Origin: Roseateles oligotrophus
Lineage (GTDB): Bacteria; Pseudomonadota; Gammaproteobacteria; Burkholderiales; Burkholderiaceae_C
Assembly (NCBI RefSeq): GCF_014204525.1
Contig: NZ_JACHLP010000008.1
Location: 1-64,000 of the forward strand
Direction of reading: 5' to 3'
Length of the DNA stretch: 64,000 bases
Below are positions 51,807 to 62,071 of the stretch, piece by piece. The notes under the pieces were generated by a model. That model was not told the DNA's origin, did no database searches, and saw nothing but the letters and a program-made list of their open reading frames with translations. The translations under genes were made by a program, and so were the position numbers. How positions within the stretch are numbered: the first letter of the stretch is position 1; each line of letters starts with the position of its first letter.

Positions 51807-51840
51807 AGCCGCCGGCGCGATTAGCCCGGCGGCTTTTTTG
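51807..51840 (+). terminator. Rho-independent terminator of purH
   Basis: AGCCGCCGG (51807-51815) pairs with CCGGCGGCT (51826-51834), then a run of T. It lies 25 bases after purH and marks the left edge of a less GC-rich insertion. Confidence 0.9.
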
Positions 51841-51898
51841 CGTGGACGGTGACCATAACTCAGCGCTTGAGTGCCGTCGGCGGGTCTGCCCTTAACCG

Positions 51899-52321
51899 TC
51901 AGGCGGCGCCTTTCCATGCACGGAAGAACCCCCAAGCAAGCAGTGCTCCTGCGGGAGCAGCGGAAGCCCAAAGTACGAGCTGCCAAGTTAATACCGGCCT
52001 CGGAAATTGCGCGAAGGCCGTAGCAACAAGGAAGACAGCCACGAGGCTAGCCAGCAATTGCCATGAGTGTGTCCTGGCAAGCAGGCACGCGACGAATGCG
52101 CCGAGAGTGAAGGCAAGCGCACGGATGACGGCATCCTCACGCCAGAACGACTCTCCCGCAATAAGCACAACAGGACCTTGCCGTCGCATCTCACCAAAGA
52201 GCCAGTCAAATGCCACGATGGGCGTCAAGGCACCAATCAACACTTGAGCCCCCAAGGCGACGAGAATTGCCACAAATGTCACGAACCAAGTGGAGCCGGT
52301 GAAAAGCGGGGGGGATGACAT
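51899..52321 (-). CDS. Hypothetical four-helix membrane protein
   Basis: About 140 residues with four predicted membrane segments (FVTFVAILVALGAQVLIGAL, ALAFTLGAFVACLLA, LLASLVAVFLVATAF, LVLWASAAPAGALLAWGFF). No family recognised. The start is probably ATG 52321; an AT-rich stretch with GTTAT core-like bases lies immediately upstream. It is less GC-rich than its surroundings and sits in a group of minus-strand small genes. Confidence 0.6.
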   Translation of the reverse strand: MSSPPLFTGSTWFVTFVAILVALGAQVLIGALTPIVAFDWLFGEMRRQGPVVLIAGESFWREDAVIRALAFTLGAFVACLLARTHSWQLLASLVAVFLVATAFAQFPRPVLTWQLVLWASAAPAGALLAWGFFRAWKGAA

Positions 52322-52437
52322 GGGATAAATAACGTTTAATTTAAGCGCCAACACATGGAAAAGAACACCTGAATAAATGGGTAGACATTTGCTGCCTCAT
52401 TGCATCTTCAGGCCGCATGTCAATCCACCAACTGCTA

Positions 52438-52953
52438 TTACCCCGAATTGCGGACGTGGACACGCGGACCGTTGCCCTCGTTCCAACGAAACAGAACGAG
52501 GTGCCAAAGGCCGGGCCGCTTTCGCGATGGATCAATCAAACCGTTGGCTCCCATTTCGATGAGGCGGTCTCGAACCTTCCAGGATCTCGGGGTGCCTCCA
52601 GCGTTGGCAATCTCTTGCCAGGGAGCGATAGCGTCGGACACCTCTATGCCGGCATTTCTCAGTGAGCTTTCGTCACGTAGATCAAAGATTCCAGTAGCCT
52701 CGACGTCAATCTCGACAATTTGCAATGAGGAGGGGCGAGCGTCATGATGCGCAATCATTGCTGCTTCGACACCTTCTACCGATGAGCTGAGATAGAGCGT
52801 CGGCTCTCCGGATCTCGAATACCTACCTGCCCGTCGAGATCCTGCGATTGCATACCCGGCGAAATTCGGGTCGATGGCCCTGTAGTAGGTACCTCGAAGC
52901 AGCGGAGCAAACATGGGTCCGGAAGATGGGCCGGAAAGTGTGATGCGCGACAT
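52438..52953 (-). CDS. RES domain-containing protein (NAD-consuming toxin-like)
   Basis: 171 residues. The segment LLRGTYYRAIDPNFAG ... AGRYSRSGEPTLYLSSSVEG fits the RES fold (conserved Arg, Glu, Ser), and EIDVEATGIFDLRD and WQEIANAGGTP fit its later part. RES toxins deplete NAD and are normally paired with an Xre/MbcA-type antitoxin encoded beside them. No such gene is seen: neighbours are a membrane protein and a 77-residue unknown. It may be an orphan enzyme, or its partner may be elsewhere. Start ATG 52953. Confidence 0.75.
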   Translation of the reverse strand: MSRITLSGPSSGPMFAPLLRGTYYRAIDPNFAGYAIAGSRRAGRYSRSGEPTLYLSSSVEGVEAAMIAHHDARPSSLQIVEIDVEATGIFDLRDESSLRNAGIEVSDAIAPWQEIANAGGTPRSWKVRDRLIEMGANGLIDPSRKRPGLWHLVLFRWNEGNGPRVHVRNSG

Positions 52954-52954
52954 A

Positions 52955-53018
52955 GTGCCAAATATAGGCGTACTAAAAAGCAAAGCTTTTGATGGTCCGC
53001 TGCAGTGACGGGTTATGC
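52955..53018 (-). other. attC-like inverted site after the 77-residue gene
   Basis: On the minus strand the stop of the 77-residue gene is within GCATAAC (53012-53018), followed by CCGTCACTGCAGCGGACC and an AAAAGC-TTT-GCTTTT hairpin. This resembles the left part of integron attC sites. The complementary GTTATGC lies just before the same gene (53283-53289). The right core site before the RES gene is not found, so the element is degenerate at best. Confidence 0.35.
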
Positions 53019-53246
53019 CCCATGGCGTGGCACATAAATACCCCACACACCGTTCGAGAGTTCGGCAGCAGCAAAGCGCGTTGTCTTTTCATTCGAAGTG
53101 ACCTCGTAAACCCAAGCCTGATGGCGTTCTTGCCGATGCGAAGGGTGCGGAACGACGATGTACTGCTGCTGAGCCCGGCGCCATTTGCTCGCGTGCAGCC
53201 ATGGATTAATGCCCCCGATAGAGAGGACGCCCTTCCAGCCCGACAT
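53013..53246 (-). CDS. Hypothetical 77-residue protein
   Basis: Reads MSGWKGVLSIGGINPWLHAS ... and ends GVWGIYVPRHGA. It is rich in Trp and basic residues, without membrane segments. No known family recognised. The start is ATG 53246; a TTG at 53291 would add 15 residues. It is flanked by a 7-base inverted pair (GTTATGC/GCATAAC), suggesting a mobile cassette. Confidence 0.5.
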   Translation of the reverse strand: MSGWKGVLSIGGINPWLHASKWRRAQQQYIVVPHPSHRQERHQAWVYEVTSNEKTTRFAAAELSNGVWGIYVPRHGA

Positions 53247-53622
53247 GCACTGGATCCCAACCTTCGGTGAAGTCTTCAAGCTGCATAACAAGACTGTCCA
53301 ATCGCCCCAAATCCACTGCCACCGTCACCCCTGAGAGTGAAGGACAGTTTGTGGGCTCATCGGTGGATTCAATTCTGTGCGCCGCAGATTCGGCTTCTCA
53401 ACGACTGAGCCGTCTGTTTGCAGCATGGCTCAGCGGCACTATAGCTCGCCTGAAAGGCGCGACCGCCCTTTCAAACACTACCCAACTTCGAAGTACATGG
53501 GGTCGGGCATCACCAGAATTCCCAAAGCCCCGCCGAGACAAATCACGCAACAATCACAGCCAACACCGCCGCTCATCGAATCAGCCCGGCGGCCTTTTTT
53601 CCGACCCGCGCCTGGAGCCCCC
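53247..53622. other. Intergenic right edge of the small-gene island
   Basis: No supported gene. At 53566-53600 a second terminator-like sequence (CCGCCG ... CGGCGG then TTTTTT) closely resembles the right part of the purH terminator (both contain agcccggcggc before a T-run). Long frames on the + strand here have no plausible start or composition. Confidence 0.5.
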
Positions 53623-56802: not shown

Positions 56803-57023
56803 AGGCAACCGCTGAGGCCAGGAGACCGACGACACATTGCGAGGCCTAGCATAAAAAGCTCGATTCTCAAGGCAGAAACAGAGCAGAAATTCTTCCGTCG
56901 TGGCAAGTCATTGACAGGGCTGGCGGACAGGCCCAGCTGCAGCCTTGCCCAAGGAACGAACCATCAGCTTTGAAGTCCCCATTGACTTCAAACGAACCCA
57001 CGAAAGGTCGCAGACCTTATTTG

Positions 57024-57515
57024 CTATTCCAGTCGAATAGTAAAATCTTTATTCGCCAAAGAACTCTGCATTTCCTGAATACTCTTGAATGGCGAAGACT
57101 TAACCACATCAACCATAGATATGAGTGACGCATTCACAAGCTCAACATTTCCATCTGCCAGTGCCCGATCCAACACGTCAAATTGTTTCTTTATGACGAC
57201 CGCACGCTCTTCGAATGTATATGTCATCAACTGAGATATTATGTCGCGTCTCGCTCTAATCTCTGCGAGCGCCGCATCTCTCTTGGCCGAAATATCCTCT
57301 CGTTTTGTTTTTTCTTCTTCTGCAACCCTCAGATAATCCAAGGCATTATCAAGCACATCCGTAAGGCCTTCAACAACGTGAACTGGCATCCCCGCTAAAC
57401 TCTTGGTAAGCCCAAGCAAGTCAGGAGATTTATTCTGTACAACAGAAATCGACTTTGATGATGAATTTTTCACCTTACTAAAGATCGACATCAGACCACT
57501 AATTGCGTCATTCAC
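57024..57515 (-). CDS. Coiled-coil protein, third gene of an AT-rich operon
   Basis: 163 residues, unknown family. A central helical, charged stretch (RVAEEEKTKREDISAKRDAA ... RRDIISQL) predicts a coiled coil, followed by a helical C-terminus. No membrane segment. GGAGGG is eight bases before a GTG at 57515, so GTG is the probable start (one base after the upstream stop); ATG 57491 is an alternative. Much more AT-rich than the rest of the window. Confidence 0.7.
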   Translation of the reverse strand: MNDAISGLMSIFSKVKNSSSKSISVVQNKSPDLLGLTKSLAGMPVHVVEGLTDVLDNALDYLRVAEEEKTKREDISAKRDAALAEIRARRDIISQLMTYTFEERAVVIKKQFDVLDRALADGNVELVNASLISMVDVVKSSPFKSIQEMQSSLANKDFTIRLE

Positions 57516-57516
57516 T

Positions 57517-58638
57517 TTACGCACCCTCCAATATCTTCTTGGCATCCGAAATGACCTGCTCACTGTCTTGCGTGACTATGCCATCATCATCCAAAATCTT
57601 GACTCGCACCAATGCATTAACGGCATAAGCAAACCTAGCAAGCACCATGTAAAGCGATTTATCCTGCGATGAGAAGTTATTGAAATTCAGTGGATCATCA
57701 AAAGATAGCTTAGGCCGCCCCCCTACCAAACCTGCCAAACCACGCATAAAAACATTTTTCTCTTCATATTCCTTCTGTTTAACTTTTATAGCATCTTTAA
57801 TATTCGCCGCGTCAACTTTCCTACGGCAAATCATCACTTCACCCTGAGACAACAATTCTTCGAAACGCTCCGACAACATCCGAATAACTTTTTCCAACTC
57901 TTGCGCGCGCGAGTGAATACTGCAAAGTACAGTCACGCCATTGTTAACTTGTTCAATTGCGTCGCGAATCTGGCTCTCTCGCTCAAAAGCCTCTGTCAAG
58001 GCTCGCTCTGACTTTTTAGCGGCTGACATGCCCATAACGGCAATCACCGGCCCAGCAATGGCACCACCTAAGACTGCCATTCCACCGGCCATTCCCATTC
58101 CGCCTGTCGCAAGCGAACCTCCGCCCAACCATGCCAATGTGGCATTTGTGGCAGCAACTCCGGAAAGAGTGCCGATTGCGGTTCCAGTTGACGCGACACC
58201 AATACTGGATGCAAGGCCGCCAGCACCTACCCCAGCCAATACGCCGGACGACAAGGCTCCCACCCCATCCTTGAGTAGATCCGCTGCTTTGTAGGAGCTC
58301 AACTCCATTGCAGCGATATCAGGCGAGTCAACGCGAACCTGCACGCCACCAATCTCAATAGGCGCACAAGACACGTTATTTATTTCTCTGGCAATACATA
58401 CGAACTTCGTGAGCTGTGCACTCTCTGTTTCAAGCCGCAATATACCAAGCTGCTCCAAGCCATAAGAAACCTGATCCTTCTTCAAATTAAGACGATCACG
58501 GGCGGCATTTAAGTCATGCTCCGCTCGATCCACCAATTCGCCAGCTGCTGAGTAATTTCTCTTTGCATCCAACCCTTTTTTCGCCCCAAACATACCCGCT
58601 GCCAAAGCAACACCACCAATAATAATTGGAATAGCCAT
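57517..58638 (-). CDS. Glycine-zipper membrane protein, second gene of an AT-rich operon
   Basis: 373 residues. N-terminal hydrophobic segment (IPIIIGGVALAAGMFGAKKG), a coiled region (about 28-80), then a Gly/Ala-rich hydrophobic block at about 120-205 containing STGTAIGTLSGVAATNATLA and LGGGSLATGGMGMAGGMAVL, followed by another coiled segment and a C-terminal domain. I recall this Gly-rich block as recurrent in uncharacterised bacterial proteins. Such glycine zippers can insert into membranes or form pores. It overlaps the upstream YkgJ-type stop by one base (TAATG); AAGGA is nine bases upstream. Confidence 0.8.
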   Translation of the reverse strand: MAIPIIIGGVALAAGMFGAKKGLDAKRNYSAAGELVDRAEHDLNAARDRLNLKKDQVSYGLEQLGILRLETESAQLTKFVCIAREINNVSCAPIEIGGVQVRVDSPDIAAMELSSYKAADLLKDGVGALSSGVLAGVGAGGLASSIGVASTGTAIGTLSGVAATNATLAWLGGGSLATGGMGMAGGMAVLGGAIAGPVIAVMGMSAAKKSERALTEAFERESQIRDAIEQVNNGVTVLCSIHSRAQELEKVIRMLSERFEELLSQGEVMICRRKVDAANIKDAIKVKQKEYEEKNVFMRGLAGLVGGRPKLSFDDPLNFNNFSSQDKSLYMVLARFAYAVNALVRVKILDDDGIVTQDSEQVISDAKKILEGA

Positions 58639-58928
58639 TATTTACAATCCTTAATAACAAGAGACACATAATCAAAGCCATGCTCTGCACGAAGCGCATT
58701 GCAGATAGCAACGTTTTCTTTGTAATACTCAATCAAACTCAACTTACCAGCAAAAATCTTATATGAATCATCAACGCGACAAAATTCAGGTCGATTATCA
58801 TATATTTTGCACGTAACCATATCGCCCTCAATATAAACACATGCACCGTCACCCCTATCCATATGCCGCGTTATGTCACTCCTATCAACATGTCGGCAAC
58901 ATAGCCCACAACCGTCACATGGAAACAT
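58638..58928 (-). CDS. YkgJ-type cysteine-cluster protein, first gene of an AT-rich operon
   Basis: 96 residues with the YkgJ (zinc/iron-chelating) pattern: CDGCGLCCRHVDRSD, then CVYIEGDMVTCKIYDNRPEF with further Cys. The eight or so cysteines probably bind metal. Family members are found beside very different genes and their role is unclear. Start ATG 58928 (a TTG precedes). It is co-translated with the glycine-zipper gene. Confidence 0.85.
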   Translation of the reverse strand: MFPCDGCGLCCRHVDRSDITRHMDRGDGACVYIEGDMVTCKIYDNRPEFCRVDDSYKIFAGKLSLIEYYKENVAICNALRAEHGFDYVSLVIKDCK

Positions 58929-59145
58929 CAATACCTAGCTCACTTAAAATTCATGGACAACACGCATTCAAAAAATATGCACCAGCAAGACAAAAATGTC
59001 TACCCCCGGCAGAGTCTTGGGTTTTCTAATTATGATCACCCGAAGCAGCTAGCAGGGGTCACTAACAGGGCCCCACAGCGTCAAACACACTTTCAAACAT
59101 AGATTTATTCTTATAAAAAAGCTACTTCTTGATTGGCAACGCTGC

Positions 59146-59388
59146 TCACCCAGCAGAATTCCCCCTACCCAAACTCTTAGATACCCTTACCTGCAGCCAA
59201 ACCGCCCCCAGCACCGCCAGCCATTCCCAATGACTCCACGCCAGCCCCATGGCTTTGGGGCTGTGCGTAATGGTCAAGCCTGCAGCCAAGACTACGAGTG
59301 GCCAGAACGCGTACAGCAGGATCAGCCCGAAATACAAAGCCATGGCTCCGCCGATGAGAGCCAGCAAGGGTCCCAAAATGCCTTTCAT
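59146..59388 (-). CDS. Small two-helix membrane protein
   Basis: 80 residues: two membrane segments (LLALIGGAMALYFGLILLYA and LAVLGAVWLQV region) joined by a short loop, and a basic tail (RVSKSLGRGNSAG). GGAGCG six bases before ATG supports the start. It is 20 bases after the DUF445 gene, hence last in the WYL-regulated operon. Unknown function. Confidence 0.65.
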   Translation of the reverse strand: MKGILGPLLALIGGAMALYFGLILLYAFWPLVVLAAGLTITHSPKAMGLAWSHWEWLAVLGAVWLQVRVSKSLGRGNSAG

Positions 59389-59408
59389 GTCGTCGCTCCG
59401 CGCTTGTG

Positions 59409-60692
59409 TCAGGGGAAAAATGTTGGCAGCGTCTGCAAGACCCAGCCCACCAAATACAAGCTCGCACCAATCAAGCCACCTACCACCGTGCCGCTGACGC
59501 GTATGGCTTGCAGCTCGGCGCCGACGCTTTGCTCCAACTGCTCACCCATGGCTTTGGCGTCCCAGCCGCGCACGGTGGCGCTGATATGGCGGGCCAGGAA
59601 GTCGGCCAACTCGGGCGTCATGTGCTCGGCAGCGGTTTCGATATGGGCCTCCAGCGCTTCACGCAGGGCCGGGTCTTGCAGCAGCCGGGTGCCAAAGCCC
59701 TGGGCCAAGGCGGCGATCTTTTGGCCGATGGCGGAATGCTCGTCGGCGATGTCTTTGCGCAGCCATTCCAGCAACTGGCCCCAGAGCTGGCCGAGGTAGT
59801 TGTTCAGCTCCTCATGCGCCAGCAGGCGCTGTTTGAATTGTTCGACCTGGGCGGCGAACGCAGAGTCGTTGCGCATGCGTTCGAGCAAGTTTTGCAACTG
59901 CTCATCGACGTAAGCGCGCAACTCGTGCTCAGGGCTGTTCAGCACCCGGCTCAGCAAGCCCTCGCCGGCTTCGACGGATTTTTTGCCCAGGTAGCCGTAC
60001 AGGCTGTCAGGAACGAGTTTGTCCAGCTTGGGGTATTCCGCCTGCGCCCACTCGGCGATGCGGGTGGCTGCCTGCTCGGCGCTTTGCTCACCGGCCAGCT
60101 TGCGCTTGAGCAAGCGCAACACATCGTCCAGCAAGGCCTGGTGCTGGCCGTTGCGGGTCAGGCCTTGCAGCAGAGTCAGCGCGGAGGCGTTCAGGTCCAG
60201 CTTTTTCAGCGCGTTCTTGACGCCCTCTTGCAGGGCCTGGCGTATCGGTGCGTCCGTAAGAGTGCTGAGTGCCTCGCTGGTGAAGCGCAAGGCATAGGTC
60301 GAGACCTGCTTGGCATTGCGCCCGTCAATCAGCCACCTTGCCAACAGCTCCAGCGGCTGATGCTTGCGCAGCATCGCCCTGATTTCATCTTTGCCAAAAA
60401 AACGGTCCTTGACGAAACTGGCTAACTGCTCGGCAATGCGGTCCTTGTTGGCCGGTATCACATTGCTGTGGCGGCGCAAAAATGGGATGGGCACGGGGCG
60501 GAACAGCGCCGTCACGGCAAACCAGTCGGCCAGACCGCCGACCATGGCGGCCTCGCAGGCATGGCGCAGCAAGCTGCTCAAAAAATGGGGCGGCAGCACA
60601 AAGCTGACAGCAAAGCCAGCGGCGGCGGCGCGCAGCCAGAACATGGCACGCCGCTTGCCAGCGGCCAGGGTATCGGAGGATTCAGCAGACAA
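59409..60692 (-). CDS. DUF445 family membrane protein
   Basis: 427 residues. Begins with a hydrophobic stretch and AAMVGGLADWFAVTALFRPV, the DUF445 hallmark, followed by FLRRHSNVIPANKDRIAEQL. Long helical coiled middle, and a C-terminal membrane helix (VGGLIGASLYLVGWVLQ). Function unknown; proteins of this family resemble spanning structural proteins of the envelope. The start appears to be TTG 60692; ATG 60644 is the next candidate. Confidence 0.88.
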   Translation of the reverse strand: MSAESSDTLAAGKRRAMFWLRAAAAGFAVSFVLPPHFLSSLLRHACEAAMVGGLADWFAVTALFRPVPIPFLRRHSNVIPANKDRIAEQLASFVKDRFFGKDEIRAMLRKHQPLELLARWLIDGRNAKQVSTYALRFTSEALSTLTDAPIRQALQEGVKNALKKLDLNASALTLLQGLTRNGQHQALLDDVLRLLKRKLAGEQSAEQAATRIAEWAQAEYPKLDKLVPDSLYGYLGKKSVEAGEGLLSRVLNSPEHELRAYVDEQLQNLLERMRNDSAFAAQVEQFKQRLLAHEELNNYLGQLWGQLLEWLRKDIADEHSAIGQKIAALAQGFGTRLLQDPALREALEAHIETAAEHMTPELADFLARHISATVRGWDAKAMGEQLEQSVGAELQAIRVSGTVVGGLIGASLYLVGWVLQTLPTFFP

Positions 60693-60734
60693 AACGAGGT
60701 CTCAATGCGGCTAAAAGGGAGGGGTGGGCGCTTT

Positions 60735-60941
60735 TCAGCGTCGGCTACGGAACAGGTCTTCCAGGCGCGCCAGCAAAACGGGCAGATGCCCGCGTTGGCT
60801 GTCCACCTGCGGGTCAGGGCTGGCGCAGCGCGGGCAGGCGCCCACAGGCATCCACACATCGCTGCGTTGCTCCCTGTGCCAGACATGGCCGCATTGGCGG
60901 CAGCTGGCGCGGTACACCAGAAGGCGGGGTTTGACGGGCAT
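60735..60941 (-). CDS. Small zinc-ribbon protein
   Basis: 68 residues with two CxxC pairs: CRQCGHVW and CPRCASPDP, a zinc ribbon resembling hydrogenase maturation HypA-like metal sites in spacing. Basic tail LFRSRR. It begins at ATG 60941, overlapping the WYL gene stop by four bases, so it is translationally coupled. Family not identified. Confidence 0.75.
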   Translation of the reverse strand: MPVKPRLLVYRASCRQCGHVWHREQRSDVWMPVGACPRCASPDPQVDSQRGHLPVLLARLEDLFRSRR

Positions 60942-60943
60942 GC

Positions 60944-61858
60944 TCAGCAAACCTCTTGTTCCGCGCGGGCGGATGAGATGGCATGGCCGCCGCCCGCCAG
61001 GTATTGCGAAAGCCCGGCATACAAGGCCTCACGCAGCTGCGGCGGGGAGACGATCTCCAGATGGGGAATCCACTGCCTGATGATGGGCAGGATCTGGTCC
61101 GGATGCACCACGCTGGCCCGCAGCAGCAGGTTGCCGGCCTCATCCTGCGACACCAGAGTCTGGTTTGGCAACAACATTTGTCGCTTGAAATAATGAGTTA
61201 CTTGCACTGACACTCGTATTTCTACGACGATCTCCTGCCCACCGAACCAGATGCCTTCACTGCCCTGCACGCGCTCCAGCATCGCTGCTTCGGGCTCGAA
61301 GCCCTGCCTGTGGATTTCAACGCGCCCGACCCGGCTCAGGTCAAAAGATTTCAGCAGCCCTGCCTCCACGGCCACCAGATACCAGACGCCGCCCTTGTTG
61401 ATCAGCCGGTAGGGCTGCACCTCGCGGGCTTTTTCCTTGTAGAAAAAGCCCACCAAGCGCCGCTCCTGGATGGCCAGTGCGGCAGCATCGAACACCGCGC
61501 ACCCCTGGGGCGCATGCAGGCTGAAGTCGGGCCCATGGACGACAAAAGGAGACGCGCTGCCAGCGGCAGGGTCTTGCGCGATATGCGCACGCAAATGCTG
61601 CAGCGTAGGGTCCGGGAAGAGCCCAGACAGGCCGGTAGCCATCGTCACATGCCGCAATACATCGGGGCGCACCAGGCCCAGCTTCCCACGCCGCTGCAGC
61701 AAAGGCGCAATGCGGCGCAGATCCCGGTAAATGGTGCGTTCGCTGGTATTGAATCGCTGCGCCAGCTTGGCCTTGTCGATAGGCTTTTGATCCAGCAACA
61801 ACTCGAAAATATGGCACATGCGCTCGGCAATGCCCTGCCCCTGACAACCCAAAACCAT
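60944..61858 (-). CDS. WYL-domain transcriptional regulator
   Basis: About 304 residues: N-terminal winged helix-turn-helix (LAQRFNTSERTIYRDLRRI) and a C-terminal WYL domain (PYRLINKGGVWYLVAVEAG) with the WCX extension. WYL regulators bind nucleotides or nucleic acid ligands and often control stress or phage-defence genes; the ligand here is unknown. ATG 61858 is preferred: the longer frame begins with a TTG inside a palindromic operator, making that start unlikely. First gene of a four-gene operon. Confidence 0.88.
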   Translation of the reverse strand: MVLGCQGQGIAERMCHIFELLLDQKPIDKAKLAQRFNTSERTIYRDLRRIAPLLQRRGKLGLVRPDVLRHVTMATGLSGLFPDPTLQHLRAHIAQDPAAGSASPFVVHGPDFSLHAPQGCAVFDAAALAIQERRLVGFFYKEKAREVQPYRLINKGGVWYLVAVEAGLLKSFDLSRVGRVEIHRQGFEPEAAMLERVQGSEGIWFGGQEIVVEIRVSVQVTHYFKRQMLLPNQTLVSQDEAGNLLLRASVVHPDQILPIIRQWIPHLEIVSPPQLREALYAGLSQYLAGGGHAISSARAEQEVC

Positions 61859-61892
61859 CTCTCCTGCACTCAACTTCAGTAGCGAATCTGCG

Positions 61893-61934
61893 TGACACAA
61901 ATTGTCAGACACAAAATTGACACCCAGTGTCAAT
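61893..61934. promoter_or_regulatory. Palindromic operators upstream of the WYL operon
   Basis: Two inverted repeats sharing the half-site TGACAC: TGACA-CAAAT-TGTCA at 61893-61907 and the 19-base ATTGACAC-CCA-GTGTCAAT at 61916-61934, with an extra GACAC half-site between (61908-61912). They lie 35-76 bases before the WYL ATG, the usual autoregulation position. TTGACA also reads as a -35 element on both strands. Confidence 0.75.
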
Positions 61935-62071
61935 CCGCTTCAGCCATGAAAAACAAGGAGATGGATTTTATTCCGCCCTAATTAAGAGTTATGTTTACGA
62001 ACCGGGGAACCGCGGCACAGTTCACGACTCCCAGATCGCAGTGAACTGGCCATCGGCCGGCCACTTGCCGT

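Follow-up and report, generated by a model that had tools for sequence, protein, structure and literature searches.

A GC-poor operon of Roseateles oligotrophus and its relatives: a possible compact form, not yet described, of a candidate virus-defense system

Within the 64-kb stretch of Roseateles oligotrophus DNA analyzed here (64,000 nucleotides; hereafter, the window), three tightly packed genes, designated C, A, and B, raise the question of whether they form an acquired conflict system and, if so, what its boundaries are. A reading of the DNA letters alone (the sequence-only reading) had described three minus-strand genes with a TAATG overlap and a one-base gap, and both the coordinates (Table 1) and the junction bases agree: the C stop codon TAA and the A start codon ATG have a single base in common, and one base (57516) lies between the A stop codon and the GTG of B. 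The block was also correctly described as richer in A+T than its surroundings, with the 1,905-bp operon having a GC content of 45.8% (39.5, 48.8, and 42.7% for C, A, and B, respectively), the minimum among all 1,905-bp segments scanned across the window in steps of 50 bases (median, 65.4%; lowest value outside the region, 56.4%). C, A, and B are considered true genes rather than chance reading frames because A has 2,714 homologues at an E value of ≤1e-3 among 7,998 candidates scored, a B-tail homologue is present in 62 of the best 80 of at least 442 loci with A relatives, and eight Cys residues of C are invariant in 57 of 57 aligned sequences, window included.

Table 1. Coordinates of the features of the operon and its surroundings in the window
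Feature	Position	Strand	Description
Accessory block	56807-62066	all genes on one strand	WYL, DUF445, 80-aa ORF, C, A, B; missing at the site in G144
B gene	57024-57515	minus	GTG start; 163-aa coiled coil; shares homology with the C-terminal tails of larger partners
A gene	57517-58638	minus	373 aa; two long helices around a charge-free Gly/Ala-rich segment; PDC-M09A match
A residues 125-207	58018-58266	minus	Glycine-zipper segment without charge; predicted membrane-inserting part
C gene	58638-58928	minus	ATG start; 96 aa; YkgJ-type Cys8 protein (PF03692)
80-aa ORF	59146-59388	minus	Hydrophobic by eye; between DUF445 and C
DUF445 protein (PF04286)	59409-60692	minus	Pfam 3.1e-96; occasional module neighbor
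WYL regulator (HTH_11, WYL, WCX)	60944-61933	minus	Pfam domains; likely start ATG 61858
Inverted repeat TGACA-N5-TGTCA, putative WYL operator 1	61893-61907	.	Perfect match
Inverted repeat TGACA-N5-TGTCA, putative WYL operator 2	61918-61932	.	Perfect match

A Pfam search of A identified no family. The protein contains a single 83-residue stretch without Asp, Glu, Lys, or Arg, with Gly or Ala accounting for 39 of the 81 residues from 125 to 205, which substantiates the Gly-zipper block previously ascribed to the middle protein. In an alignment of 23 A sequences, window included, 35 columns were invariant, and 29 of these lie inside the charge-free stretch. The predicted structure (mean pLDDT, 68.5) has long helices at residues 6 to 85 and 197 to 293 and a head (residues 125 to 205) with a pLDDT of <50. 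Such a low-confidence head would suit a membrane-inserting segment; as it is poorly modeled, membrane insertion is read from the sequence. Phage records and viral contigs searched for relatives of A yielded none.

The sequence-only reading had taken the first protein for a likely metal-binding Cys8 protein. This description gains support from the invariance of the eight Cys residues and from a score of 30.4 bits (curated cutoff, 23) against the CxxCxxCC domain PF03692, the YkgJ-type family that Pfam still labels a putative chelating domain. The flagellin lysine methylase FliB, which carries a similar Cys cluster that its authors compare with PF03692, has eight conserved Cys residues and binds a [4Fe-4S] cluster, according to the available part of the source (PMC8598068). 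Only the Cys pattern was compared, and it differs in detail, as the 96-aa C has the motif CX2CX2CC, whereas that of FliB is CX4CX3CC. Given the invariant Cys8 and the FliB precedent, C is likely to harbor an Fe-S or Zn site. At L044:3344-5916, a second C gene adjoins a Leo-like gene rather than a typical A, a hint that dynamin-like systems may make use of Cys8 proteins as well. A YkgJ-family gene is also described within an SGI1-related element, the Vibrio cholerae VN-2808 island, in the accessible portion of PMC9035990, and homologues named V. cholerae are present in the A protein list.

For B, only four close homologues were found at an E value of ≤1e-3, B itself included, and further relatives emerged solely through iterated profiles. 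These profiles identify the window B as a tail only, its homology being with the C-terminal tails of larger partners. In 30 of 52 large partners, a choice made by eye, the tail is preceded by a PD-(D/E)XK-like domain, and G57, E61, D95, Q109, and K111 are invariant in these 30, which were picked for that type; the N-terminal domain was predicted with confidence in a structure model. By comparison of sequences, a nuclease-like signature, reminiscent of the E...D...(E/Q)xK pattern of PD-(D/E)XK nucleases, is carried by the large B of relatives and not by the window B; a nuclease fold of the large B is putative. An LRAT domain was found in three of the 52 and an M48 domain in two; these LRAT and M48 peptidase domains stand ahead of the common tail at L053:3132-5516, L068:6818-9232, L010:11059-12156, L012:1101-2186, and L055:11066-12106. 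The B tail is missing from 18 of the best 80 loci, 14 of which are matched by a PDC-M40B-type partner profile that was itself built from 10 of those 14. One locus, L040, was matched by both the B-tail and the PDC-M40B-type profiles, which suggests that the two kinds of partner are related. Distances between A sequences covary with those between B sequences (Mantel rho, 0.53; P = 0.001; n = 63) and weakly with those between C sequences (rho, 0.20), and shared descent alone could yield the same in either case.

Recurrence of the module was examined using iterated profiles on six-frame peptides from 1.356 Mb of DNA around 80 loci, the best 80 of at least 442 confirmed A relatives, which were chosen by similarity and include some cut by contig ends. 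Judged by the titles of their records, these best 80 loci come from many proteobacterial groups, Campylobacterota, and Bacillota. The B tail was present in 62 of them, C in 55 (leaving 25 without C), and TerB in 26, with 77 carrying C or B and 40 carrying both; the three with neither were L014, which has a LeoBC-like GTPase gene after A, L066, and L077. All copies of B and TerB and 55 of 56 copies of C in the best 80 loci lie within 3.5 kb of A and on the same strand, the odd C being that of the second module of L044 with its Leo-like gene. None of 19 matched control stretches taken from these genomes contained A, B, C, TerB, or a window-type WYL or DUF445. The check proposed in the sequence-only reading, namely, whether YkgJ-type and coiled-coil genes keep turning up beside the middle gene in one genome after another, thus came out in favor of a system.

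A was identified in 8 of 200 family genomes (E value of ≤1e-3) and in 9 of 398 phylum genomes (E value of ≤1e-20), its own genome and divergent A being counted in both cases. A less biased sample with wider flanks was formed by 14 of the 15 non-own hits from these genomes, G498 being excluded for a hit at a contig edge. Seven of the 14 loci carry a strong A (E value of 1e-78 or better), and five of these are new relative to the best 80, with L153 and L163 probably identical to L042 and L048, respectively. All seven strong-A loci have a B or M40B-type partner and six have C, while TerB is present in two and DUF445 in one. A WYL gene or piece lies upstream in five of the seven, four being found with the window WYL protein and L154 only with the Klebsiella WYL; those in L154 and L164 are short pieces. 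In the other seven loci, where A is weaker (6e-43 to 1e-24), B, C, and TerB are all lacking. A middle gene standing apart from its partners, the case named beforehand as counting against a system, is therefore seen among weaker A, whereas every strong A kept a partner. One divergent A without B or C (L157:6481-8979) nonetheless has a window-type WYL gene upstream on the same strand.

Relatives of A were identified in 26 plasmid records, always with a match spanning less than 80% of A, and, as 22 of the 26 are from Klebsiella, plasmid spread is narrow. On a Klebsiella plasmid, A is accompanied by a 523-aa partner, a YkgJ gene, and, upstream, a WYL gene reduced to a partial frame (L142:8534-8959) next to an IS3 transposase gene. 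An Acinetobacter plasmid has B and C adjoining A and, in the vicinity, SIR2 and toxin-antitoxin genes, and a Massilia plasmid carries A together with B and C not far from a phosphorothioation-associated gene.

The boundaries of the unit were drawn too narrowly when it was described as three genes, as the WYL and DUF445 genes upstream seem to be included. Of 20 relatives searched, G144 is the closest (its flanking oxidoreductase is 92% identical); there, the bases at window positions 56806 and 62067 adjoin (L119), and A is missing from the genome. The intervening stretch of approximately 5.26 kb is therefore accessory, as judged from this one relative, and may have been gained here or lost there. 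Matches of G206 and G013 to the window break off at 56803 as well. The functional unit is thus probably larger than three genes, taking in WYL and DUF445. The GC contents of C, A, and B are far below those of the WYL and DUF445 genes, so the accessory block may be composite. The 80-aa ORF had no Pfam, PADLOC, or NCBIfam match at an E value of ≤1. Among the best 80 loci, DUF445 homologues were found near A in 2, L007 and L011, each time immediately before A, and a third DUF445, in L008, is 8.4 kb away on the opposite strand; in L160, a homologue sits just past C. A window-type WYL gene lies upstream of A on the same strand in 6 of the best 80 loci and in the Klebsiella plasmid, and at an E value of ≤1e-40 its own genome was the only one of 120 family genomes to yield the window-type WYL. 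Recurrence of the module, absence of the block from G144, and WYL genes upstream of A elsewhere all favor the earlier proposal of a conflict-type system, accessory in nature, in which the three parts form a set with a link to WYL. A housekeeping pattern with normal GC and synteny was not seen, given the 45.8% GC, the patchy distribution of A, and the site lacking the block in G144.

The two perfect TGACA-N5-TGTCA repeats, which lie just before the likely WYL start, are the only ones in the window, with 0.02 expected from base composition. A single perfect copy was found in the 1.356 Mb of the best 80 loci, there was no enrichment when up to two mismatches were allowed, and no perfect repeat precedes C. 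Other N5-spaced perfect repeats, with arms of 6 to 8 bases, precede WYL in L048, L073, and L011; none was found before WYL in L007, L038, L142, or the cut locus L034. According to the available text of PMC9122601, the repeats bound by BrxR have a 5-bp spacer, and BrxR acts as the repressor of a defense island. The window WYL resembles BrxR/CapW-type regulators in its HTH, WYL, and WCX domains and in having inverted repeats with a 5-bp spacer at the start of its gene, whereas its repeat arms are of 5 to 7 bases compared with 11 for BrxR in the same text. When the window WYL was compared with PDB sequences at an E value of ≤0.01, PafBC was the sole match (6.4e-5).

Comparison with PADLOC models connected A to a candidate defense system. 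All seven A proteins tested (window, L042, L003, L014, L026, L030, and L031) match PDC-M09A, the window A at 1.4e-24, whereas the window B had no match to PDC-M09B at an E value of ≤1. Among the six large partners tested, those of L010, L026, and L059 match PDC-M09B and that of L030 matches PDC-M40B, while PDC-M09B did not match the large B of L013 or L021 or the small B of L002 or L042. No PDC model matched C (three tested), TerB (one), or DUF445 (one), and the window WYL matches general WYL models. On sequence grounds, the window locus would therefore be a variant of PDC-M09 rather than a member, as its B is homologous in the tail alone. The PDC candidates are described as unpublished and unvalidated in the available parts of PMC11811056 and PMC12988326; the name PDC-M09 was not found in the open-access papers searched, and no description of this system was found there in titles and abstract openings.

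The neighborhoods of A were also compared with PADLOC models at an E value of ≤1e-10. The 133 neighbor proteins of 19 loci match 80 and 19 models in two batches, compared with 29 and 7 for 133 control proteins from the same genomes; these counts are of models rather than proteins, and one rich locus can inflate either side. L079 was excluded, its contig being too short to supply a control stretch, and the neighbor set contains WYL and Leo matches, possibly the module's own parts. The neighbor matches listed include type III restriction, DpdF, Leo, PsyrT, DUF499/DUF3780, HmaC, HEC-05/06, IetA, MzaC, and type IV restriction, whereas 20 of the 25 control matches listed for the first batch are JetA, JetB, or JetD. 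This defense-rich neighborhood and the plasmid context support a conflict role, as judged from gene content.

The reading that we prefer, with belief and doubt about evenly balanced, is that the genes form a horizontally acquired, WYL-regulated conflict module of the PDC-M09/PDC-M40 class, probably anti-phage and of abortive type. The WYL protein would control its own promoter through the two inverted repeats and would be released upon infection or DNA damage. A would put its charge-free Gly/Ala segment into the inner membrane, its long helices forming a platform on which the B tail would dock. In the large relatives, the tail would bring a nuclease-like, LRAT, or M48 domain to this platform. 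As the window B is the tail only, A itself would provide the output here by perturbing the membrane, with B setting or releasing this effect, and C would act as a redox or metal switch or as a maturation factor for the A-B complex through its probable Fe-S or Zn site. A bolder proposal, which we regard as unlikely while giving it some weight, is an undescribed immune class that combines an Fe-S Cys8 switch, the glycine-zipper platform A, and a B tail plugging in exchangeable effectors (nuclease-like, LRAT lipid enzyme, or M48 protease), with the window representing an effector-free form that would kill by membrane damage alone; C may then chemically modify A or B, by analogy with FliB and flagellin.

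Resemblances to bacterial dynamin-like proteins raise the alternative of a membrane-remodeling or envelope-stress system, in which A would be the trunk and paddle of such a protein without the GTPase, TerB and DUF445 would serve envelope or metal stress, and C would sense redox state or metal. A homologues match the C-terminal part of the PADLOC LeoBC profile (L031, 1.1e-9; L030, 9.4e-7), with the window A reaching only 0.0037; LeoBC-like GTPase genes adjoin A in L014 and C in L044; and TerB occurs in 26 of the best 80 loci. The available part of PMC4159319 describes the LeoA paddle as Gly rich and reports that leoA, leoB, and leoAB knockouts reduced vesicle release, which also favors this alternative. 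A and LeoABC are thus alike in a Gly-rich hydrophobic segment between long helices and in having Leo-like genes beside A or C. However, a search for GTPase families in the window C, A, and B found none, and when the A profile was aligned by hhalign with the L014 GTPase, a single-sequence template, the probability was 0.1. The patchy, partly plasmid-borne spread and the nuclease-like partners suit a conflict role better, and we consider an envelope system doubtful.

The tight C/A/B junctions and the carriage of A on plasmids near toxin-antitoxin genes would also suit a toxin-antitoxin-like or mobile-element maintenance module, with A as a membrane toxin restrained by B and/or C and with selection for keeping the element. 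A plain toxin-antitoxin pair would not have a regulator, TerB, and exchangeable enzyme domains, however, and the narrow plasmid spread weighs against maintenance, making this explanation decidedly improbable. We give very little credence to a ClyA/Hbl-type alpha-pore-forming effector that would work within the cell or against competitors. The two long helices and hydrophobic low-confidence head of the A model fit that description, and an NheB profile matched A weakly (E value of 0.28), but Foldseek with the A model returned nothing at an E value of ≤1e-3, and VIA-align returned no specific relative, only middling helical rows and generic coiled coils.

Gene sets of this kind are found across many bacterial lineages and resemble a compact form, not yet described, of a candidate virus-defense system. 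The orphan candidate PDC-M09/PDC-M40 would thereby be tied to partners without a PDC match, namely, the Cys8 protein and TerB and, in some lineages, DUF445 and WYL, and B would be explained as a docking tail with exchangeable enzyme domains. The six-gene block is a compact construct and offers a testable route toward the function of YkgJ-type (PF03692) proteins.

A further stretch of approximately 1.7 kb (51840-53581; 55.9% GC) in the window is likewise missing in G144. The RES domain family is known for its NAD-degrading toxins, and a RES-domain protein (PF08808, 3.4e-12) is encoded within this stretch at 52438-53046.
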